DNA from: Pseudoalteromonas shioyasakiensis
Lineage (GTDB): Bacteria > Pseudomonadota > Gammaproteobacteria > Enterobacterales > Alteromonadaceae
Reading direction: 5' to 3'
DNA: 64,000 nt
Assembly (NCBI RefSeq): GCF_019134595.1
Contig: NZ_CP077770.1
Location: 2,414,501-2,478,500, forward strand
The notes beneath the pieces were generated by a model, which had not been told where the DNA came from, made no database searches, and saw only the letters and a list, made by a program, of their open reading frames with translations. The position numbers and the translations under genes were made by a program. This document shows positions 10,608 to 56,184 of this stretch, piece by piece (the first letter of the stretch is position 1; every line of letters begins with the position of its first letter).

Positions 10608-10684
10608 TCCCCCTTAGCTCAGTTGGTTAGAGCGACGGACTGTTAATCCGCAGGTCCCCCGTTCGAGTCGGGGAGGGGGAGCCA
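10608..10684 (+). tRNA. tRNA-Asn (GTT), copy 1
   Basis: 77-nt tRNA with encoded CCA. The acceptor stem pairs TCCCCCT with AGGGGGA, the anticodon loop is CTGTTAA with anticodon GTT, and the T loop is TTCGAGT. Confidence 0.97.
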
Positions 10685-10705
10685 AGTTTTTCAATCATAA
10701 ACGAT

Positions 10706-10782
10706 TCCCCCTTAGCTCAGTTGGTTAGAGCGACGGACTGTTAATCCGCAGGTCCCCCGTTCGAGTCGGGGAGGGGGAGCCA
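10706..10782 (+). tRNA. tRNA-Asn (GTT), copy 2
   Basis: Identical in sequence to copy 1, including the encoded CCA; separated from it by a 21-bp spacer with no promoter of its own. Confidence 0.97.
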
Positions 10783-10801
10783 AGTTTATGAATATGATTG
10801 T

Positions 10802-10878
10802 TCCCCCTTAGCTCAGTTGGTTAGAGCGACGGACTGTTAATCCGCAGGTCCCCCGTTCGAGTCGGGGAGGGGGAGCCA
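10802..10878 (+). tRNA. tRNA-Asn (GTT), copy 3
   Basis: Identical to copies 1 and 2, with a 19-bp spacer. The spacers differ from each other, so the array is older than the Glu and Val arrays, or its genes are homogenised by gene conversion. Confidence 0.97.
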
Positions 10879-10907
10879 AATCATAGCACCACACTACTCT
10901 ATTTAGT

Positions 10908-10984
10908 TCCCCCTTAGCTCAGTTGGTTAGAGCGACGGACTGTTAATCCGCAGGTCCCCCGTTCGAGTCGGGGAGGGGGAGCCA
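10908..10984 (+). tRNA. tRNA-Asn (GTT), copy 4
   Basis: Identical fourth copy ending the array. No strong terminator hairpin is evident immediately downstream. Confidence 0.97.
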
Positions 10985-31353: not shown

Positions 31354-31429
31354 TGGCGTCCCCAAGGGGATTCGAACCCCTGTTACCGCCGTGAAAGGGC
31401 GGTGTCCTAGGCCTCTAGACGATGGGGAC
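31354..31429 (-). tRNA. tRNA-Glu (TTC), copy at the distal end of the array
   Basis: 76-nt tRNA with encoded CCA, acceptor GTCCCCA/TGGGGAC-type pairing, anticodon loop CTTTCAC with anticodon TTC, T loop TTCGAAT. It is last in transcription order. Confidence 0.97.
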
Positions 31430-31507
31430 ACATAATGTGTCACTAGGACAACTGAATAGTTAAACTCGATTCAGACGAGCTCTTAATAACACAACACTTA
31501 AAGTAAG

Positions 31508-31583
31508 TGGCGTCCCCAAGGGGATTCGAACCCCTGTTACCGCCGTGAAAGGGCGGTGTCCTAGGCCTCTAGACGATGGGGAC
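31508..31583 (-). tRNA. tRNA-Glu (TTC)
   Basis: Identical to its neighbours, lying exactly 154 bp from the preceding and following copies with near-identical 78-bp spacers. Confidence 0.97.
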
Positions 31584-31661
31584 ACATAATGTGTCACTAG
31601 GACAACTGAATAGTTAAACTCGATTCAGACGAGCTCTTAATAACACAACACTTAAAGTAAG

Positions 31662-31737
31662 TGGCGTCCCCAAGGGGATTCGAACCCCTGTTACCGCCGT
31701 GAAAGGGCGGTGTCCTAGGCCTCTAGACGATGGGGAC
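31662..31737 (-). tRNA. tRNA-Glu (TTC)
   Basis: Identical copy in the same 154-bp register; its counterpart 399 bp away is the copy at 32061. Confidence 0.97.
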
Positions 31738-31815
31738 ACATAATGTGTCACTAGGACAACTGAATAATTAGACTCGATTCAGACGAGCTTTTAATAACAC
31801 ATCACTTAAAGTAAG

Positions 31816-31886
31816 TGGCGTCCCCAAGAGATTCGTACTCTTGATAACGTCGTGCATAGATTGCGCGGTGTTCACCGCCCCACTAC
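31816..31886 (-). pseudogene. tRNA-Glu-like relic 1
   Basis: This sits in the 154-bp register but is degraded. The 3' end (GGGGACGCCA) and the ACACCGC block of tRNA-Glu remain; the 5' acceptor strand and D arm are lost. The T stem reads AAGAG/CTCTT around TACGAAT, that is, both strands changed together relative to the intact gene. It is unlikely to be a functional tRNA because the acceptor stem cannot form. Confidence 0.8.
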
Positions 31887-31906
31887 ACATAACCTACTTA
31901 AATAAG

Positions 31907-31982
31907 TGGCGTCCCCAAGGGGATTCGAACCCCTGTTACCGCCGTGAAAGGGCGGTGTCCTAGGCCTCTAGACGATGGGGAC
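31907..31982 (-). tRNA. tRNA-Glu (TTC)
   Basis: Intact copy only 21 bp from relic 1; identical in sequence to the others. Confidence 0.97.
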
Positions 31983-32060
31983 ACATAATGTGTCACTAGG
32001 ACAACTGAATAGTTAGACTCGATTCAGACGAGCTTTTAATAACACAACACTTTTAGAAAG

Positions 32061-32136
32061 TGGCGTCCCCAAGGGGATTCGAACCCCTGTTACCGCCGTG
32101 AAAGGGCGGTGTCCTAGGCCTCTAGACGATGGGGAC
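32061..32136 (-). tRNA. tRNA-Glu (TTC)
   Basis: Intact identical copy, 154 bp from the copies on either side of the register. Confidence 0.97.
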
Positions 32137-32214
32137 ACATAATGTGTCACTAGGACAACTGAATAGTTAGACTCGATTCAGACGAGCTCTTAATAACACA
32201 ACACTTTTAGTAAG

Positions 32215-32285
32215 TGGCGTCCCCAAGAGATTCGTACTCTTGATAACGTCGTGCATAGATTGCGCGGTGTTCACCGCCCCACTAC
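32215..32285 (-). pseudogene. tRNA-Glu-like relic 2
   Basis: Same 71-nt degraded sequence as relic 1, exactly 399 bp away, showing that a block of intact tRNA plus relic was duplicated as a unit after the relic had decayed. Confidence 0.8.
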
Positions 32286-32305
32286 ACATAACCTACTTAA
32301 ATAAG

Positions 32306-32381
32306 TGGCGTCCCCAAGGGGATTCGAACCCCTGTTACCGCCGTGAAAGGGCGGTGTCCTAGGCCTCTAGACGATGGGGAC
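32306..32381 (-). tRNA. tRNA-Glu (TTC)
   Basis: Intact identical copy, 399 bp from the copy at 31907. Confidence 0.97.
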
Positions 32382-32511
32382 ACATAATGTGTCACTAGGA
32401 CATTAAATGATAGTTTGACTCATATCGGAGTTAAGGTTACTAAAATAACATGTAAGTACTCGAGACCAACATATTTATTCTCTTGGCAATTGCTCACTTA
32501 CTAAGAGTAAG

Positions 32512-32587
32512 TGGCGTCCCCAAGGGGATTCGAACCCCTGTTACCGCCGTGAAAGGGCGGTGTCCTAGGCCTCTAGACGATGGGGAC
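32512..32587 (-). tRNA. tRNA-Glu (TTC), first Glu copy in the array
   Basis: Intact copy next to tRNA-Ala, with a different upstream spacer from the others, so it is probably the ancestral copy. Confidence 0.97.
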
Positions 32588-32626
32588 GCAGAAAACTGCA
32601 ACCCTAGGACAAACACTATGCAAATC

Positions 32627-32702
32627 TGGTGGAGCTATGCGGGATCGAACCGCAGACCTCTTCGCTGCCAGCGAAGCGCTCTCCCAGCTGAGCTATAGCC
32701 CC
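32627..32702 (-). tRNA. tRNA-Ala (GGC)
   Basis: 76-nt tRNA with encoded CCA. Acceptor GGGGCTA pairs with TAGCTCC (one G-T), anticodon loop CTGGCAG with anticodon GGC, T loop TTCGATC. It is the first gene of the Ala-Glu operon. Confidence 0.96.
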
Positions 32703-33346: not shown

Positions 33347-33422
33347 GGGTCGTTAGCTCAGTTGGGAGAGCATCGCCCTTACAAGGCGAGGGTCACTGGT
33401 TCAAGTCCAGTACGACCCACCA
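33347..33422 (+). tRNA. tRNA-Val (TAC), copy 1
   Basis: 76-nt tRNA with encoded CCA. Acceptor GGGTCGT pairs with ACGACCC, anticodon loop CTTACAA with anticodon TAC, T loop TTCAAGT. Confidence 0.97.
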
Positions 33423-33458
33423 TTATTCACTAATGGTGTTCATATCTAAATTCTTAAT

Positions 33459-33534
33459 GGGTCGTTAGCTCAGTTGGGAGAGCATCGCCCTTACAAGGCG
33501 AGGGTCACTGGTTCAAGTCCAGTACGACCCACCA
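33459..33534 (+). tRNA. tRNA-Val (TAC), copy 2
   Basis: Identical to copy 1; its downstream spacer equals that of copy 4. Confidence 0.97.
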
Positions 33535-33560
33535 TTAAGAAAATTTGCTGTATGTAATAT

Positions 33561-33636
33561 GGGTCGTTAGCTCAGTTGGGAGAGCATCGCCCTTACAAGG
33601 CGAGGGTCACTGGTTCAAGTCCAGTACGACCCACCA
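33561..33636 (+). tRNA. tRNA-Val (TAC), copy 3
   Basis: Identical copy; 216 bp before copy 5, with the same flanks. Confidence 0.97.
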
Positions 33637-33674
33637 TTTTTTAAAGTGGTGTTTCATATTACAAAAATCTAAAT

Positions 33675-33750
33675 GGGTCGTTAGCTCAGTTGGGAGAGCA
33701 TCGCCCTTACAAGGCGAGGGTCACTGGTTCAAGTCCAGTACGACCCACCA
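33675..33750 (+). tRNA. tRNA-Val (TAC), copy 4
   Basis: Identical copy; 216 bp after copy 2 and before copy 6. Confidence 0.97.
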
Positions 33751-33776
33751 TTAAGAAAATTTGCTGTATGTAATAT

Positions 33777-33852
33777 GGGTCGTTAGCTCAGTTGGGAGAG
33801 CATCGCCCTTACAAGGCGAGGGTCACTGGTTCAAGTCCAGTACGACCCACCA
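33777..33852 (+). tRNA. tRNA-Val (TAC), copy 5
   Basis: Identical copy, part of the second 216-bp repeat unit. Confidence 0.97.
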
Positions 33853-33890
33853 TTTTTTAAAGTGGTGTTTCATATTACAAAAATCTAAAT

Positions 33891-33966
33891 GGGTCGTTAG
33901 CTCAGTTGGGAGAGCATCGCCCTTACAAGGCGAGGGTCACTGGTTCAAGTCCAGTACGACCCACCA
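33891..33966 (+). tRNA. tRNA-Val (TAC), copy 6
   Basis: Identical copy ending the second 216-bp unit; the sequence downstream differs from that of copy 4. Confidence 0.97.
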
Positions 33967-34009
33967 TTAAACAAACTTTGGTGGTGTTTTCATTTAGATT
34001 ATTCTTCGC

Positions 34010-34085
34010 GGGTCGTTAGCTCAGTTGGGAGAGCATCGCCCTTACAAGGCGAGGGTCACTGGTTCAAGTCCAGTACGACCCACCA
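34010..34085 (+). tRNA. tRNA-Val (TAC), copy 7
   Basis: Identical copy with a unique 43-bp upstream spacer. Confidence 0.97.
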
Positions 34086-34124
34086 TTTACTTTTTGAAAA
34101 TGGTAGCGAAGAAAAAGATTATAT

Positions 34125-34200
34125 GGGTCGTTAGCTCAGTTGGGAGAGCATCGCCCTTACAAGGCGAGGGTCACTGGTTCAAGTCCAGTACGACCCACCA
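34125..34200 (+). tRNA. tRNA-Val (TAC), copy 8
   Basis: Identical copy; followed by a decayed tRNA-Val relic. Confidence 0.97.
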
Positions 34201-34216
34201 TTACTTTTTGAAGCAG

Positions 34217-34276
34217 AGAGCATCGCAACTCTTTACAATGAAAAGGCTCGGCGGTTAAGTTCAGTAAGAACAACCA
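34217..34276 (+). pseudogene. tRNA-Val relic 1
   Basis: Starts with AGAGCATCGC and ends with AACAACCA like the tRNA-Val gene, keeping TTTACAA around the anticodon, but with many substitutions and insertions in between; the 5' acceptor strand is missing. Confidence 0.75.
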
Positions 34277-34299
34277 TTTAATCTTAAAAATTTATATGT

Positions 34300-34375
34300 G
34301 GGTCGTTAGCTCAGTTGGGAGAGCATCGCCCTTACAAGGCGAGGGTCACTGGTTCAAGTCCAGTACGACCCACCA
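34300..34375 (+). tRNA. tRNA-Val (TAC), copy 9
   Basis: Identical last intact copy; followed by two tandem relic units. Confidence 0.97.
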
Positions 34376-48739: not shown

Positions 48740-49186
48740 TTAACTAATTTTCGTCAGCCACTCATTTAACCATGGCTCAGTAACAGGCCAAGGCTCAAAA
48801 TCTTCACAGGCATCAATTTCTAAACGATGACCAACAGGTTTTGCCTGTAAATCGCGAAACAGCTCATCAAAACTGCGACCTGCACCACAAAACGTATCGC
48901 CATAGCTGCGGTCGCCCATAGCAATAATGCCGTATTGCTTACCTGTTAACAGTGGAAATTGATCATTTAATTGGCTATATAAAGCGATTAAATTGTCAGG
49001 AATATCGCCCTGACCCGTCGTTGAAGTGATCACTAAAATATGTGACGCAGCCAGCATGTCATCGACCGTGCCATTTTCAACTAATTGCGCTTGATGCTCA
49101 GACTTTTCAATGACTTCAATAACTTGTTCGCTTAAACGCTCAGCACCGCCGTAAACACTGCCGACAAAAATACTAATGGTTGCCAT
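48740..49186 (-). CDS. Flavodoxin (MioC/YqcA-like)
   Basis: A 148-residue FMN electron carrier. The phosphate loop is FVGSVYGGAERLSEQ, the isoalloxazine loops are STTGQGDIPDNL and MGDRSYGDTFCGAGRSFDEL. The ATG at 49186 is chosen because AAAGGA lies 8 bases before it. It overlaps the end of truC, and with yqcC upstream it reproduces the E. coli yqcC-truC-yqcA cluster, so it is a YqcA orthologue by context. Confidence 0.9.
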   Translation of the reverse strand: MATISIFVGSVYGGAERLSEQVIEVIEKSEHQAQLVENGTVDDMLAASHILVITSTTGQGDIPDNLIALYSQLNDQFPLLTGKQYGIIAMGDRSYGDTFCGAGRSFDELFRDLQAKPVGHRLEIDACEDFEPWPVTEPWLNEWLTKIS

Positions 49187-49955
49187 AATAATCCTTTTCT
49201 TCTGTTGGCCAGCCAAGTTGCTGGCAAATCGTTAACATTGCATCGCCTAAAGGCGCTCTAATTGTTATTGGTTGCTTGCTATAAGGGTGCACAAACTTTA
49301 ATTCAGAGGCAAATAACATTAAACGACGAAGCTGGAAATGCTCTCTAAAAAATTGATTATGCTGATTATCACCATGATTTACATCACCAATAATTGGCAA
49401 TGATAAATGTTTTAAATGACGACGAATTTGATGTTTACGGCCAGTTTTTGGAAAACACTCCACCAGCGAGTACCGAACTGTTGGGTACTTACCTATTGGA
49501 ATAGGTAAGCTTGCTTGGTGCAGGCAATGAAATTGTGTTTGTGCTTCTTGCGGCGCTTTATTTTGATCAGCAAACTTATCGGCAATTTTATCAAGCTCTT
49601 CTTTTAAGGGTTTATCTAAGAAGGTTGATTCGTTTAAAAAGCCTCTTACTAAAGCTAAATAACGCTTTTCAATTTGCCCATCAATAAATAACTGATTCAT
49701 ATCACGGGCTGCTTCTGAACTTAACGCAAACAATAATACGCCTGACGTTGGTCTATCTAAACGATGAACAGGAAACACGTGTTGACCAATTTGGTCACGC
49801 AGCATTTGCATAGCAAATTGGGTTTCGTGTTTGTCTAAAAACGAACGGTGAACCAATAAACCTGATGGTTTATCAATCGCAATGTAATTTTCATCGCGGT
49901 ACAGAATCGTTAACTCATCAAATTGTGGCTTAACACTCTCTTGCATCTTAGTCAT
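49173..49955 (-). CDS. truC: tRNA pseudouridine(65) synthase
   Basis: A 260-residue RluA-family synthase. The catalytic loop HRLDRPTSGVLLFAL holds the active aspartate, preceded by IDKPSGLLVHRS and followed by GRKHQIRRHL. TruC modifies U65 of tRNA-Ile and tRNA-Asp. The ATG at 49955 lies within the end of yqcC, and the gene's 3' end overlaps the flavodoxin start, indicating a tight three-gene operon. Confidence 0.93.
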   Translation of the reverse strand: MTKMQESVKPQFDELTILYRDENYIAIDKPSGLLVHRSFLDKHETQFAMQMLRDQIGQHVFPVHRLDRPTSGVLLFALSSEAARDMNQLFIDGQIEKRYLALVRGFLNESTFLDKPLKEELDKIADKFADQNKAPQEAQTQFHCLHQASLPIPIGKYPTVRYSLVECFPKTGRKHQIRRHLKHLSLPIIGDVNHGDNQHNQFFREHFQLRRLMLFASELKFVHPYSKQPITIRAPLGDAMLTICQQLGWPTEEKDYYGNH

Positions 49956-50262
49956 CACTCAAAAGTTGATCGAGTTTTTGTAAAACGTTAATCACATCAT
50001 TACCGCCGCTGTGTTGTGCCAGCATCATTTCAGTCATAGGCGCAATTGCAAAATTACGAGGTAAAGGCTGGGCATGTGCAATGAGGGAGTGCATTTTTTC
50101 AAGAAAAACAAATTGCAGCCATTGCTCAAAAGCCATGGTGTCATGACAAAACGGCACACTAGAATTGAGTGCACTTGGGTCAATCGGTGTTGTTTGCCAA
50201 AGTGAATGGCGTTGTAATGTGGATTCTAATTCGCGCAGCAGCGCCAAAGTCTGTTGATGCAT
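49948..50262 (-). CDS. yqcC: YqcC-family protein (DUF446)
   Basis: A 104-residue helical protein starting MHQQTLALLRELESTLQ, with FCHDTMAFEQWLQFVFLEKM in the centre and a C-terminal helix VINVLQKLDQLL. This matches the YqcC family of unknown function. The start at 50262 fits the family N-terminus; the long upstream frame is not coding. It is first of the yqcC-truC-flavodoxin operon; E. coli has the same neighbours. Confidence 0.88.
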   Translation of the reverse strand: MHQQTLALLRELESTLQRHSLWQTTPIDPSALNSSVPFCHDTMAFEQWLQFVFLEKMHSLIAHAQPLPRNFAIAPMTEMMLAQHSGGNDVINVLQKLDQLLSDD

Positions 50263-50368
50263 TGTAAAACTCTTAATACCTTTGCGCTTAGTATACCCTG
50301 TTCCAAGGCGCCATGGTATGGCGTATAATTCGCAGCTGATATAGATTAATAATGGTAATTGAGATTTT

Positions 50369-51397
50369 ATGACTGAGCAGATCGCCACTTTAGGGCAACT
50401 TCTGGATGCAGCAGGTACCACTTGGCGTGCCTTCGATATTGGCAGACACATCACTAAATTAGACAAAAAACAATTTCTTGCCATTGAAGAAACAAAAATC
50501 CCTTACCCTTACCCGCTTGCAGGTCATGCTTGGCTTGCTATTCAATTTTGGGATGTAAAAGCGTCTAAAGAACCTTATGTATGGTTTTTAAAATTCCCAC
50601 TAGATGAGCAGAGCCGCCTAGTAAGCGCAAGCCGCGACCATTTCGCAAACATGGTAATTGAAGCACTTGGTACAGAAATTACCGGTGAAAATGCTGAAGG
50701 CAAATTAGACAACAACCCGTATGTATTTACGCCAAACGCCAACAAGCTAGCAGCTTTTAATGCACAGGTTAAATGTTTGCTTAAACAAAGTGCTTCACAG
50801 TATTACGAATATGCGCAGCTGTATTTTTCTGGCAAACTGGGTTTTGATAACTGGCAAAGTGTTGCAGTACAAGGTATTGCAGACTTTGCGATGCGTTTAG
50901 ATAACGACAACAATTTAGCAAATCTACAAGCCGCTTGGGGGCAATTACCAGTCGAAGTATTACAGCCGCTAAGTGCAATGCTTGAACATGTTGCAATCGA
51001 CCCCGTATTTGCAGAACAATTGTTAGCCTACGGTTTAAACGCCATAGAGCATAAAGACGACATCGCCCTTGTTGCAGCCCTTAGAAGCTTATCAAAAACA
51101 CCTGCGCAAGGTTTAACTGCGCAACTGGTTGATGCTGTATTACGCTCTGATATGAACACCCAGTCAGATGTACTATTAACGATTGCGGGGCGTTGTTTTA
51201 GCACACTAGAAGACCCAGAACGCTTACATGTGTTTATGGATTGCTGTGCACACCACACTGAGATTGAGCAACTGTTTGTGAGTATTTTCACCGATTTAGT
51301 TGCAATTCCTAGTATTCGCCCTCACCTACTAGGTTTATTAAGAAAAGAAAATCGTAGCGAAACACTCGCTCGAGCAATTGGAAGGTTATTTTCGTAA
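50369..51397 (+). CDS. DUF3549 family protein
   Basis: A 342-residue soluble protein beginning with a conserved TLGQLLDAAGTTWRAFDIGRH stretch and a WFLKFPLDEQ block, followed by an all-helical C-terminal half resembling HEAT-like repeats. The family is conserved in gammaproteobacteria without a known role. It is divergent from yqcC and its stop abuts the DUF3301 start. Confidence 0.82.
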   Translation: MTEQIATLGQLLDAAGTTWRAFDIGRHITKLDKKQFLAIEETKIPYPYPLAGHAWLAIQFWDVKASKEPYVWFLKFPLDEQSRLVSASRDHFANMVIEALGTEITGENAEGKLDNNPYVFTPNANKLAAFNAQVKCLLKQSASQYYEYAQLYFSGKLGFDNWQSVAVQGIADFAMRLDNDNNLANLQAAWGQLPVEVLQPLSAMLEHVAIDPVFAEQLLAYGLNAIEHKDDIALVAALRSLSKTPAQGLTAQLVDAVLRSDMNTQSDVLLTIAGRCFSTLEDPERLHVFMDCCAHHTEIEQLFVSIFTDLVAIPSIRPHLLGLLRKENRSETLARAIGRLFS

Positions 51398-51697
51398 ATG
51401 GCAGGCTTGTGGACACTCATCATCATTGGCAGCATCATCTACTTTTTTTGGTTAAACAGAAAAGTGGCCGAAGCAGCTAATCTTCATGCACAAAGACAAA
51501 TTGAGCAATTAAATGTGCAATTGATGAGTGTTGCTTGCAATAAACGCCGACTTGGCATTTTAAAAAGCGGCAAACCAGGTATCAAAAGCGAATTTATTTT
51601 TGAGTTTTCAAGTGATGGACAAAACGTGTATCAAGGTGTTTTGATCATGGAAAATGAATTACTTAAAAGTGTAGTTATACCGCCACACAAGATTTAA
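51398..51697 (+). CDS. DUF3301 family membrane-anchored protein
   Basis: A 99-residue protein with one N-terminal membrane helix (about 3-18) followed by a soluble segment that contains QLMSVACNKRRLGILKSGKPGIKSEFIFEF, characteristic of DUF3301. The function is unknown; it is regularly found after DUF3549. Its TAA stop is the first base triplet touching the heptanucleotide repeat downstream. Confidence 0.8.
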   Translation: MAGLWTLIIIGSIIYFFWLNRKVAEAANLHAQRQIEQLNVQLMSVACNKRRLGILKSGKPGIKSEFIFEFSSDGQNVYQGVLIMENELLKSVVIPPHKI

Positions 51698-51812
51698 GTT
51701 GCGAGTTGCGAGTTGCGAGTTGCGAGTTGCGAGTTGCGAGTTGCGAGTTGCGAGTTGCGAGTTGCGAGTTGCGAGTTGCGAGTTGCGAGTTGCGAGTTGC
51801 GAGTTGCGAGTT
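51697..51812. repeat. Heptanucleotide microsatellite (AGTTGCG)16
   Basis: Sixteen complete perfect copies of AGTTGCG plus four further bases. It starts at the last base of the DUF3301 stop codon and ends about 40 bp before the terminator of the predicted CsrB-like RNA. All copies are identical. On the opposite strand it opens a spurious frame reading SQLATRN repeats. Confidence 0.97.
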
Positions 51813-51850: not shown

Positions 51851-51883
51851 AGAAAGAACTAAGGCGTAGCTAATAGCCACGCC
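51851..51883 (-). terminator. Rho-independent terminator of the CsrB-like RNA
   Basis: On the - strand, stem GGCGTGGCT / AGCTACGCC (nine pairs, one G-U) with loop ATT, followed by the T-rich tail TTAGTTCTTTCT. Confidence 0.85.
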
Positions 51884-52262
51884 CCAATCTTGCTACTTCC
51901 ATGATTAAGTATCCTTACTTATGCCGAAGCTGCCTTTTTATCTTTCCCCTGAACGGGTATACATCCGATACACCCACCATGCTACTTCATGTAACATTTA
52001 ACACATCCTAGTGCCGTCCTCTTGCCGTCAATGGCTATCCACTTCGTTTTCCAAACGCTCCTTTAGCTTCCTGCTAAAATCATCCTTTGGTTAGTCCTTT
52101 TCAATCGCTCCGCGATTGTGCTGCATCCTGGCAGTGTCCTCGTTCTTCCTTGCTTCCCTAGTTCTTGTCCCTTTGCTTCCTGCTAAGCATCTTGCTTTGT
52201 TGCCATAATCCTAATCCTTGGCATCAGTTCAATCATTGAACCTGCGTCTTCTTGACATGATT
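51853..52262 (-). ncRNA. CsrB-family CsrA-sequestering RNA (predicted)
   Basis: About 410 nt with no protein gene. Read on the - strand it holds roughly 20 GGA motifs, against about six expected by chance. Several lie in hairpin loops, as CsrA requires: 7-bp stem with GGA loop (52102-52118), CTGC-CAGGAT-GCAG (52121-52134), TTAGC-AGGAA-GCTAA (52063-52077) and CGTTT-GGA-AAACG (52045-52057). A clear rho-independent terminator ends it. The size and motif density equal E. coli CsrB (369 nt, about 22 motifs). Such RNAs titrate the translational regulator CsrA and so control biofilm, motility and carbon metabolism. The 5' end is approximate; a TAAACT -10-like box lies near 52270. Confidence 0.82.
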
Positions 52263-52409
52263 AAGTTTAGAGAAATGCGGATATCTTGGTAGGCATAAAA
52301 AGTAATTTTTTCTAAGTCACAAAAATGACAAAAACAATAAATCCTTTAAAATCATTAAAATAAGCAATTATAGGTACAGATTTTAAGGCATTAAACTGAT
52401 AAAGCGCAC

Positions 52410-52437
52410 AGCAATGTGAGATTTATCTCACATTGCT
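52410..52437. promoter_or_regulatory. Palindrome resembling a GacA/UvrY binding site
   Basis: A perfect inverted repeat with 12-base arms and a 4-base centre. Its core TGTGAGATTTATCTCACA (52415-52432) has the 18-bp TGTnAG-N6-CTnACA layout of GacA/UvrY sites, which activate csrB-type genes from far upstream. It lies about 150 bp upstream of the predicted RNA. It could alternatively be a hairpin at the 3' end of the GNAT gene, which stops 21 bp away, but no T-run follows. Confidence 0.55.
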
Positions 52438-52457: not shown

Positions 52458-53105
52458 TCAATTTGCTGCTTTGAACATCAAGTCGCCTTCAACTTGGTTA
52501 AAGCTTAATGCTTTGAACACTTCAAACCCTTCAGAGCTAAAGAATTCGCGCTGTTCAGAACGGGTAACAAATACGGCTAAACCACTTGCTTGATTGCTTG
52601 ATTCAACTAAATAATCAAGACCTCGTAACAGATATCTGCCTAAACCTTGCCCCTGAAAATGTGGGTCAACGGCTATAAAGGCTAAAAACAGATAATGGCC
52701 TTTACTCGAGAGCGCTTCGCGAATAGTGCGTTCTTTTTCTATCAATTGATTGGTTTGCAAGTAACCCGCACTAAGCATCAGTTTTAAGCGCCAATGCCAG
52801 TATCGCTCAGCTTGCAGTTCACTTGCCGAATCAAATACACACGCAATTGCTTTTAATCTACTTTCTGAGTAAAGGCCTATTAGAGGCTGTTTTTCTTGCC
52901 AGAAACTTGCTAGCTCTTCACGCACTAAAGCACGTAATTTAGTTTCATATTTACTTGGATTATCTTGTTGAAAACCTAATACATTCTGAAGAACAGGATC
53001 ATCATGATAGGCTTGATAAATAAGGCTTGCGGCAGTGCTGATATCTTCAGCACTCAGGTATTGCACACTTAAGGTTTCGGGTTCAGCAACTGTCAAAATA
53101 CTCAT
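52458..53105 (-). CDS. GNAT-family N-acetyltransferase
   Basis: A 215-residue acyl-CoA-dependent acetyltransferase. The acetyl-CoA loop is visible as AVDPHFQGQGLGRYLLRGL (Q-x-x-G-x-G/A), preceded by FLAFIAVDP (beta-4) and followed by FVTRSEQREFFSSEGFEVFKAL (beta-5/alpha-4). The N-terminal half is longer than in minimal GNATs. The substrate is unknown. It is monocistronic and transcribed towards the CsrB-like RNA. Confidence 0.85.
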   Translation of the reverse strand: MSILTVAEPETLSVQYLSAEDISTAASLIYQAYHDDPVLQNVLGFQQDNPSKYETKLRALVREELASFWQEKQPLIGLYSESRLKAIACVFDSASELQAERYWHWRLKLMLSAGYLQTNQLIEKERTIREALSSKGHYLFLAFIAVDPHFQGQGLGRYLLRGLDYLVESSNQASGLAVFVTRSEQREFFSSEGFEVFKALSFNQVEGDLMFKAAN

Positions 53106-53638: not shown

Positions 53639-53905
53639 ATGAATGCCGTTGTATTTGATGCAATTAAAACCCTTCTTGATGAAGGTAAAACCCCAACTGT
53701 TGCCTTAACTAAAAGTAAGCTAACCCAACCTATGCCGATGCCTGTGATCATCGCTGCGGTTAGCCAATATAAAAACAATCCGGATTCAATTAATAATTTC
53801 ATCAATAACCCGTCAAATGAACAACTGAGTACACCAAAAGAAAGTCAATTGGATCGTATTGAAGCTAAATTAGATAGGTTATTAGCACTGCTTGAGAAAA
53901 AATAA
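53639..53905 (+). CDS. Uncharacterised 88-residue protein
   Basis: The ATG at 53639 gives MNAVVFDAIKTLLDEGKTP. The N-terminal half looks like a small helical DNA-binding-like motif (TPTVALTKSKLTQPMPMPVIIAAV) and the C-terminus is a short coiled coil (LDRIEAKLDRLLALLEK), but I do not recognise the family. The stop overlaps the DUF2310 start (TAATG), so the two form an operon and may work together. Confidence 0.65.
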   Translation: MNAVVFDAIKTLLDEGKTPTVALTKSKLTQPMPMPVIIAAVSQYKNNPDSINNFINNPSNEQLSTPKESQLDRIEAKLDRLLALLEKK

Positions 53906-54739: not shown

Positions 54740-55279
54740 TTATACCGTTACTTTGTCTAAAAACTCACTGATGCTAGTTGCTAGCACATGATGTGGTTTT
54801 TTACCCACATACTCTAAACAAACCTCACCGCTTTCGACTAATACAGTGATCAGCAGATCATCTTGCTCTGTAAGACCAATAAATACGGTTTCTGGCTGCT
54901 TTAGCTTGCGCTTCATTAACACGTGACCGGTAATATTTTGCTGTAAGCGGCTAAAATCATCTTCATTCCATGCTTGTAGCAGTTCAATGTGATGATCATC
55001 AATACTCAATAACAAATTACCCGCATAGACATGACCAAACAATGGGCTTAAATCTTCAGGAAACGATAACTCGAGTGCCTTGGCTAAGTCTTCTAAACTG
55101 CCAGCAGGTTGTTGTGGAACTGCACACCACTGAATAAGCCCTTGCTCATCGACTTCGCCCTGCTCACATGGACTTGGCCATGCTGTATCATGTTCAATAA
55201 CAGGAAGCTTTCCTGTGCGTTCGAGGCATTTTTCACTAAATGCTTGATGTAACTTATCTAGTTTTGTAGAAACAGACAT
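54740..55279 (-). CDS. syd: SecY-interacting protein Syd
   Basis: A 179-residue cytoplasmic protein that binds free or faulty SecYEG. The ATG at 55279 gives MSVSTKLDKLHQAFSEKCLE; the acidic groove segment AWPSPCEQGEVDEQGLIQW and the C-terminal FIGLTEQDDLLITVLVESGEVCLEYVG-like pattern are typical. The longer upstream frame runs into the divergent queF promoter and is not coding. syd and queF are also divergent neighbours in E. coli. Confidence 0.93.
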   Translation of the reverse strand: MSVSTKLDKLHQAFSEKCLERTGKLPVIEHDTAWPSPCEQGEVDEQGLIQWCAVPQQPAGSLEDLAKALELSFPEDLSPLFGHVYAGNLLLSIDDHHIELLQAWNEDDFSRLQQNITGHVLMKRKLKQPETVFIGLTEQDDLLITVLVESGEVCLEYVGKKPHHVLATSISEFLDKVTV

Positions 55280-55338
55280 ACTGCGAAACTCATTGGCTTT
55301 AGGTATAATGCCTTCATTGTAACTACAAAAGTGTAAAG

Positions 55339-56184
55339 ATGACAGATTACAGCAACTCACCCGAACTGAAAAACAGCGTTCTTGGTAAAAGCACAGAGTA
55401 TGTAGATACCTACACACCAAGTTTACTGTTTCCTATTGCCCGTAAATTAAACCGTGATGCATTAGGTGTTAGCGAAGATAACTTACCGTTTAAAGGCCAA
55501 GATATTTGGACTGGCTATGAATTATCGTGGCTGAATAGCAAGGGTAAGCCAATGGTCGCTGTGGCAACATTTGTATTTCCTTGTCAAAGCAGTCATATCA
55601 TTGAGTCAAAGTCATTCAAACTGTACCTAAATAGCTTTAATCAGACTCGATTTGAGACGCTGGATGACGTACATCAAGCACTTAGCAAAGACTTGTCAGA
55701 TGCGGTAAATGCACAGGTCTTAGTTACTTTATACCAAGCAGATGATTTCAATTGTTTACCATTTTCAGCGTTACCGGGCGAATGTATTGATGATCTGGAT
55801 ATCGAAATCACCAGCTATGATATTGATGCAAGCTCACTTCGCCATAATGGTGATGAGATTGTCTCAGAAACCCTACACAGTCACTTACTAAAATCGAACT
55901 GTTTGATCACCTCACAGCCTGATTGGGCGAGTGTGATTATTCGTTATAAAGGCCAAGCGATTTGCCATGAAGCCTTATTAAAATATTTAATTTCGTTTCG
56001 AACTCACAACGAATTTCATGAGCAATGTGTAGAGCGTATTTACTGCGATTTAATGCAGCAGTTAAATCTCGAAGAGTTAGAAGTGTATGCCCGTTATACA
56101 CGCCGTGGTGGTTTAGATATCAACCCTTATCGCTCAACGAATCAAGATGAAACACCCTTCAAGGTAAAAATTAATCGCCAATAA
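55339..56184 (+). CDS. queF: NADPH-dependent 7-cyano-7-deazaguanine reductase
   Basis: A 281-residue tunnelling-fold enzyme that reduces preQ0 to preQ1 in queuosine synthesis. It is the long two-domain type, as in E. coli (282 aa). The catalytic cysteine lies in [16 protein letters not shown], the QueF motif [11 protein letters not shown] is in the N-terminal half, and [12 protein letters not shown] is in the C-terminal. It is divergent from syd with a shared 59-bp promoter region holding a TATAAT box. No preQ1 riboswitch is apparent in that short gap. Confidence 0.95.

Follow-up and report, generated by a model that had tools for sequence, protein, structure and literature searches.

The predicted Csr small RNA of Pseudoalteromonas occupies the chromosomal position of Escherichia coli csrB and is probably its vertically inherited counterpart

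Introduction

What is encoded in a gap of some 400 nt, densely packed with GGA on one strand, that separates a GNAT acetyltransferase gene from a DUF3301 gene in a Pseudoalteromonas genome (4.72 Mb, two contigs)—and is it a recent invention of that genus, or an old gene whose sequence has changed beyond easy recognition? The gap lies within a 64,000-nt stretch of DNA (G000:C1:2414501-2478500), the whole of which we refer to as ‘the window’ and whose numbering we use throughout. A first-pass annotation had proposed that the minus strand at 51853..52262 encodes a regulatory RNA with the architecture of CsrB; a class whose members titrate the protein CsrA, and one that homology-based annotation could miss.

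The class is already described in Pseudoalteromonas, and the small RNA (sRNA) of the window is not new in kind. Two reports describe Pf1, a Csr sRNA of Pseudoalteromonas fuliginea BSW20308 that is reported to influence glycogen synthesis in E. coli and to give mutant phenotypes; CsrA gel shifts are reported for its companions Pf2 and Pf3 (PMC9927453, PMC11882849). The printed GGA count for Pf1 is 25 in one (PMC11882849) and 21 in the other (PMC9927453), and a de novo origin is considered for it (PMC9927453).

Results

A GGA-rich stretch with conserved hairpins

The predicted gene and its component parts are as follows, listed in the direction of transcription:

52415..52432, minus strand: UvrY/GacA box TGTGAGATAAATCTCACA, 176 nt upstream of the inferred start
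52264..52269, minus strand: likely -10 element TAAACT; start site placed at 52256
51852..52256, minus strand: predicted Csr sRNA gene, judged orthologous to Pf1/CsrB; ~405 nt, 21 GGA
52121..52134, minus strand: CTGC-CAGGAT-GCAG hairpin; a CG/UA compensatory pair, 100% of cells paired in 11 sequences
52102..52118, minus strand: 7-bp hairpin closing a GGA triloop; two of seven pairs changed on both sides, 100% of cells paired in 11 sequences
51863..51883, minus strand: terminator hairpin GGCGTGGCTATTAGCTACGCC; 92.9% of cells paired

The annotation had counted about 20 GGA in 410 nt; we find 21 on the minus strand of 51853-52262, set against a window mean of 2.1 per 410 nt (both strands, 5-base steps) and a maximum of 12 outside the sRNA. 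Dinucleotide-preserving shuffles of the same stretch contain 12.3 GGA on average (sd 2.4) and attain 21 in one case out of 2000, mononucleotide shuffles in four out of 2000; a purine-rich composition thus accounts for the count partly, not wholly. As had been claimed, no protein reads through: no open reading frame of at least 60 aa is contained in the stretch, the sole frame of that size to touch it starting at 51880 and leaving into the 7-bp repeat downstream, and the remaining frames there (searched from 20 aa upwards) reach 55 aa at most. Lying at 51697-51812, between the DUF3301 3′ end and the terminator of the sRNA, the repeat consists of the unit AGTTGCG in 16.6 perfect copies; among the printed rows of the alignment described below it is identical in L038 and related in L054 and L058.

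Relatives of the GNAT protein led to 36 loci, of which 34 were examined, L066 and L067 (unrelated organisms) being omitted; the nearest named relatives at this locus include strains of P. shioyasakiensis, P. gelatinilytica and P. lipolytica, with GNAT proteins 99% identical. Of the 32 Pseudoalteromonas loci, 27 have a cluster of at least 19 GGA per 400 nt no more than 1.1 kb downstream of the GNAT gene; L046, L048, L051, L052 and L057 have none there, and neither do the two Thalassotalea loci. Aligning the window with these 27 loci (the printed version shows the 18 rows under 95% identity) reveals conservation of the GacA/UvrY box, the TAAACT element, the 5′ end and the terminator hairpin.

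The sRNA strand has a folding energy of -108.8 kcal/mol (z -3.58), a value equalled by none of 100 shuffles. In our hand-drawn local structure nine of the 21 GGA sit in hairpin loops, eleven are otherwise unpaired and one is partly paired, in keeping with the claim of loop-borne motifs; both hairpins singled out by the annotation are present, at 52118-52102 and 52134-52121. For covariation we took 11 of the 28 sequences (window plus 27 loci), chosen for similar length. Here 88% of cells are paired in the drawn structure and 40 cells are changed on both sides, compared with 0-4 when partners are slid and a shuffle mean of 14.5 (none of 500 shuffles matching); the covariation score is 0.204 for the drawn structure versus 0.114. 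Pairs showing both-side changes exceed the shuffles only moderately in number (19 of 500 as high), and ‘further pair types’ are not above chance (425 of 500 as high). Helices 1, 6, 8 and 10 are kept in only 59–76% of cells, the weakest being helix 10 (59%) and helix 6 (71%), and RNAalifold reproduces nine of the twelve drawn helices (those other than 3, 6 and 10), with 13 pairs showing both-side changes. Several of the GGA hairpins are supported by compensatory changes.

Composition alone predicts about 12 GGA per 410 nt, and one might see in the stretch nothing but purine-rich intergenic sequence enriched by chance. Set against the compensatory changes in its hairpins, the conserved UvrY box and the presence of a cluster here in 99 of 108 genomes (see below), such an explanation is scarcely credible.

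UvrY box, promoter and terminator

The box TGTGAGATAAATCTCACA departs from TGTAAG-N6-CTTACA by two mismatches, begins 25 nt past the GNAT stop and sits within an inverted repeat (52410-52437) of two 13-bp arms about a 2-base centre. Of the 28 sequences, 23 had a terminator that our script recognised and could thus be measured; in 22 of these the box and the 5′ end are 176 nt apart, the exception, L063, having 174. TAAACT is found in 17 of the 18 printed alignment rows (all except L056), ahead of a conserved 5′ end, (A/G)TCAAGAxGA(C/T). A simple scan returned no sigma-70 promoter on the minus strand at the expected place, missing TAAACT as well. From these features we infer RNA ends at 52256 and ~51852, so that the stretch proposed by the annotation stands, whilst its start falls ~6 nt early.

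At the other end, the rho-independent terminator that had been predicted is recognisable as the hairpin GGCGTGGCTATTAGCTACGCC (51883-51863), behind which comes an imperfect T tract, TTAGTTCTTTCT, at 51862-51851. The hairpin is absent from the output of a simple terminator scan of the minus strand at the expected place; it is kept in all 23 loci measured, twelve of which have a better tract, TTAGTTTTT.

Could the GGA-rich stretch instead belong to the GNAT mRNA as its 3′ UTR, and serve as a CsrA sponge only within that transcript? The sRNA is on the GNAT strand, ~200 nt past its stop, and a transcript could fold at the inverted repeat (52410-52437); this reading nevertheless leaves unexplained why box-to-start spacing and TAAACT are kept while the sequence between them varies. 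Moreover, the GNAT gene has no cluster behind it in five of 32 Pseudoalteromonas loci, and at least one of those genomes (G057, locus L052) keeps a cluster beside DUF3301; furthermore, the predicted promoters of Pf1 are reported to have driven a GFP reporter on their own (PMC9927453). We regard the UTR explanation as very improbable, and an independently transcribed sRNA as the reading to be preferred.

A GacA-box pattern matches four sites in the whole genome and, when read backwards as a control, six; only the window's site precedes a GGA cluster. The genome has a second Csr sRNA candidate, at G000:C1 ~3112898-3113378 on the plus strand (L076:1242-1722; 481 nt, 26 GGA), with a box TGTAAGACATATCTCACC 176 nt upstream; this was missed by the pattern because its box deviates by one base. 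It is 74% identical over ~400 nt to an element of P. fuliginea (L109) and, going by GGA number, is more likely to be Pf2 (21 GGA printed) than Pf3 (9 printed; PMC11882849). A further GGA-rich stretch, at G000:C1:3288106-3288566 on the minus strand (L077), has 23 GGA and its own terminator; no UvrY box was matched there. It adjoins the 3′ side of genes that by eye are BON-domain- and YqaE-like, includes two tiny related frames, KALWSSAQWQRFM and VALWNKQQWHEFM, kept in five of the five loci translated, and is present in 13 of 108 genomes. It may be an mRNA with a double role, coding as well as titrating CsrA.

Rfam score and relation to Pf1

At Rfam's own cut-offs the window yields tRNAs only. 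These tRNA genes form arrays at 10608-10981 (four), 31357-32702 (eight) and 33347-34372 (nine), with equal scores within the array for 4/4, 7/8 and 9/9 respectively. With relaxed thresholds CsrB (RF00018) becomes the best match of the sRNA stretch, at 27.4 bits (E 1.3e-5), covering 51852-52153 and model positions 1-356 of 356. This is far under the gathering cut-off of 71 bits, and automatic annotation therefore misses the sRNA, just as had been anticipated; saying this, a GGA-rich composition can in itself inflate the scores of CsrB-type models. The P. fuliginea ortholog scores almost the same, 27.3 bits.

The GacA box printed for Pf1 occurs in P. fuliginea KMM 216 (L043), 40 nt past the GNAT stop, and the RNA following it contains 25 GGA, which agrees with the count in PMC11882849. 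On the basis of box, GGA count and place we judge the sRNA of the window to be orthologous to Pf1, the comparison running through this KMM 216 element rather than the printed Pf1 sequence.

Survey of the genus

DUF3301 is present in all 108 Pseudoalteromonas genomes searched, and provides a fixed point from which to search the stretch beyond it (0.4-3 kb, depending on the genome), on the opposite strand, for clusters of at least 14 GGA per 350 nt. Such a positional cluster is found in 99 of the 108, the DUF3301 strand never exceeding 9. In the fetched stretch of the other nine there is no cluster. For G059 that stretch reached ~130 nt past DUF3301, blastn and a model of the RNA's 5′ region (151 5′ positions from 15 Pseudoalteromonas sequences) assigning its two ends to separate contigs; for G018 it amounted to 1.5 kb only; and in G012 a partial blastn match lies ~3.2 kb away, just past it. 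Partial blastn matches lie at other places in G009, G010, G080 and G088; G042 and G107 gave no blastn match with the window RNA. The upstream box is conserved along with the cluster: among the 93 genomes with enough sequence (six cluster-bearing genomes being excluded as too short) it occurs with at most two mismatches in 66 and with at most three in 86, compared with backgrounds of 18 and 184, respectively, in 2019 draws.

Searching by sequence recovers fewer. The window RNA finds matches, many of them partial, in 79 of 108 genomes by blastn, and the 5′ model, under stricter filters, in 52 of 108; a published sequence-based count puts Pf1 in 252 of 672 genomes (37.5%; PMC11882849), a figure to be set beside our 99 of 108 with the proviso that the genome sets differ and that a positional GGA cluster is a looser criterion than sequence identity. 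Together these numbers suggest that sequence searches miss many copies of Pf1.

Position of csrB and of probable counterparts across the order

The genes flanking the sRNA place it within a wider arrangement:

48740..50319, minus strand: yqcA-truC-yqcC block (starts approximate; NCBIfam flavodoxin PRK08105, TruC PRK11112; DUF446/YqcC PF04287)
50369..51397, plus strand: DUF3549 gene (Pfam PF12069)
51398..51697, plus strand: DUF3301 gene, convergent downstream neighbour of the sRNA (Pfam PF11743)
52458..53105, minus strand: GNAT acetyltransferase gene, upstream of the sRNA (Pfam Acetyltransf_7, Acetyltransf_1)
53639-53902, plus strand: 88-aa frame between DUF2789 and DUF2310, no Pfam match
54740..55282, minus strand: syd (Pfam PF07348, NCBIfam PRK04968)
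55339..56184, plus strand: queF (NCBIfam TIGR03138)

The order in the window is thus yqcA-truC-yqcC (minus), DUF3549 and DUF3301 (plus), sRNA and GNAT (minus), DUF2789, the 88-aa frame and DUF2310 (plus), syd (minus) and queF (plus). In E. coli K-12 it is yqcA-truC-yqcC-csrB-syd-queF, the first five genes sharing one strand. The sRNA of the window, lying between yqcA-truC-yqcC and syd-queF and on the strand of syd, therefore has both the position and the strand of E. coli csrB.

To see how far this extends we turned to a sample of 119 genomes of the order, 78 of which have Syd (our own genome included), and within it to 32 Syd-centred loci from 17 families, hand-chosen before their content was seen; clusters of at least 14 GGA per 350 nt were sought on the syd strand, from the yqcC side to syd. 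The yqcC-syd interval holds 24 such clusters, in 13 of the 32 loci and six of the 17 families (f1, that of Pseudoalteromonas, and f6, f10, f15, f18 and f20). Among the cluster-bearing loci, yqcA-truC-yqcC went unseen in L118 and yqcC in L114. Only two clusters were encountered outside the interval in the 32 loci (L128, L134), and 19 of the 32 have no interval cluster, some with the gene block not found nearby and some with a short interval. Eight loci (L115, L118, L120, L123, L135, L139, L140, L141) contain two or three clusters in succession, which suggests local multiplication of csrB.

Applied to all 13 cluster loci, Rfam's CsrB model gave hits above its cut-off in only three: one each in L125 and L133, and two in L120; the interval of L120, like that of the window, contains a DUF3549 gene. 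A UvrY box with at most two mismatches precedes 18 of the 24 clusters by 40-330 nt, equally good boxes occurring at 1-14 (one mismatch) or 7-25 (two mismatches) of 300 random same-strand places. When run on 23 loci, the 5′ model found its best match in E. coli csrB, at an E-value of only 0.027. Up to E 10 the model has 27 matches. A GGA cluster is overlapped by 22 of them, clusters amounting to 1.8% of all strand-bases searched, and the five others have E-values of 1.2 or worse. A shared GGA composition may drive part of these matches, and the main evidence for common descent is for that reason synteny.

These observations bear directly on whether the RNA arose de novo in Pseudoalteromonas, its likeness to CsrB being convergence; an origin considered for Pf1 (PMC9927453), with the reported lack of a significant sequence match outside the genus as its support (PMC9927453, PMC11882849). 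The interval and strand shared with E. coli csrB, the interval clusters in 13 of 32 loci and six of 17 families, the bridging locus L120 with its DUF3549 gene and two CsrB hits above cut-off, and the weak model hits in both directions (E. coli csrB ranking first, although GGA composition may contribute) all stand against it. We consider a de novo origin unlikely; given the position of E. coli csrB and the clusters found in the interval across the order, Pf1 is probably a vertically inherited csrB.

Discussion

The element very probably represents the csrB gene of Pseudoalteromonas, known as Pf1 in P. fuliginea: a UvrY-switched RNA of ~405 nt that titrates CsrA, with transcription, control by UvrY and binding of CsrA predicted for this strain. 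In common with the CsrB/Rsm class, it has many GGA in loops or single strands and a UvrY/GacA box upstream, in a genome with one CsrA gene (PF02599) and a UvrY-like gene, the latter being the best match to E. coli UvrY at 69% identity. The CsrB-type architecture put forward by the annotation thus finds support in the GGA hairpins and their compensatory changes, the spacing of the box, the presence of CsrA and UvrY-like genes, the predicted orthology with Pf1 and the position of csrB; evidence drawn in each case from sequence.

By analogy with Pf1 and CsrB, the classical mechanism is the most likely. UvrY, activated by BarA, would probably bind the box and switch on a promoter with its start ~176 nt downstream; RNA polymerase would then produce an untranslated RNA of ~405 nt, ending behind the hairpin at 51883-51863, whose 21 GGA sites, many of them in hairpin loops, would bind several CsrA dimers, withdrawing the protein from its mRNA targets and so freeing the mRNAs under its control.

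Taking the genus and the order together, we think it likely that csrB has its ancestral home in the yqcC-syd interval and has been inherited there vertically throughout the order to which both E. coli and Pseudoalteromonas belong, that Pf1 is this csrB, near universal in its genus but with a turnover of sequence that hides many copies from BLAST and Rfam, and that the gene has multiplied locally in several families. Its near-universal place in the genus and the csrB position are additions to what is cited here from the Pf1 papers. A literature search at the level of titles and the beginnings of abstracts returned no paper on a csrB position conserved between yqcC and syd; a prediction paper of 2006 may already describe it, and we therefore claim no priority for the conservation of this interval. 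More generally, fast-evolving Csr sRNAs can be found by a fixed gene interval instead of by sequence, and the resulting positional orthologs offer a means of studying how CsrA sponges retain their function as their sequence changes; for Pf1 itself, the evidence argues against a de novo origin.

Comparison with known systems

With Pf1, as represented by KMM 216, the sRNA of the window shares its place beside the GNAT gene, the type of GacA box, the 5′ end and the terminator hairpin. It is the shorter of the two (403 versus 469 nt by the same script, with 21 versus 25 GGA), and blastn of the window RNA against a P. fuliginea genome (G017) aligns two stretches only, one of 132 nt at 77% identity and one of 38 nt at 85%. 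With E. coli CsrB (RF00018) it has in common GGA hairpins, a UvrY box, a terminator, the yqcC-syd interval and the strand; it differs in scoring under the family cut-off, and in an interval that additionally holds DUF3549, DUF3301, GNAT, DUF2789, DUF2310 and the 88-aa frame. Within the Alteromonadales, the respective reports describe CsrB1/CsrB2 of Shewanella and Aln1a-c of Alteromonas as sRNAs with repeated CsrA-binding GGA (PMC3171408, PMC5864184), the Shewanella pair being UvrY dependent and equipped with a GacA box (PMC3171408). Unlike the sRNA of the window, CsrB1 and CsrB2 form a pair split by a transposase gene (PMC3171408), and the three Aln1 RNAs all start within one 404-bp gap (PMC5864184).
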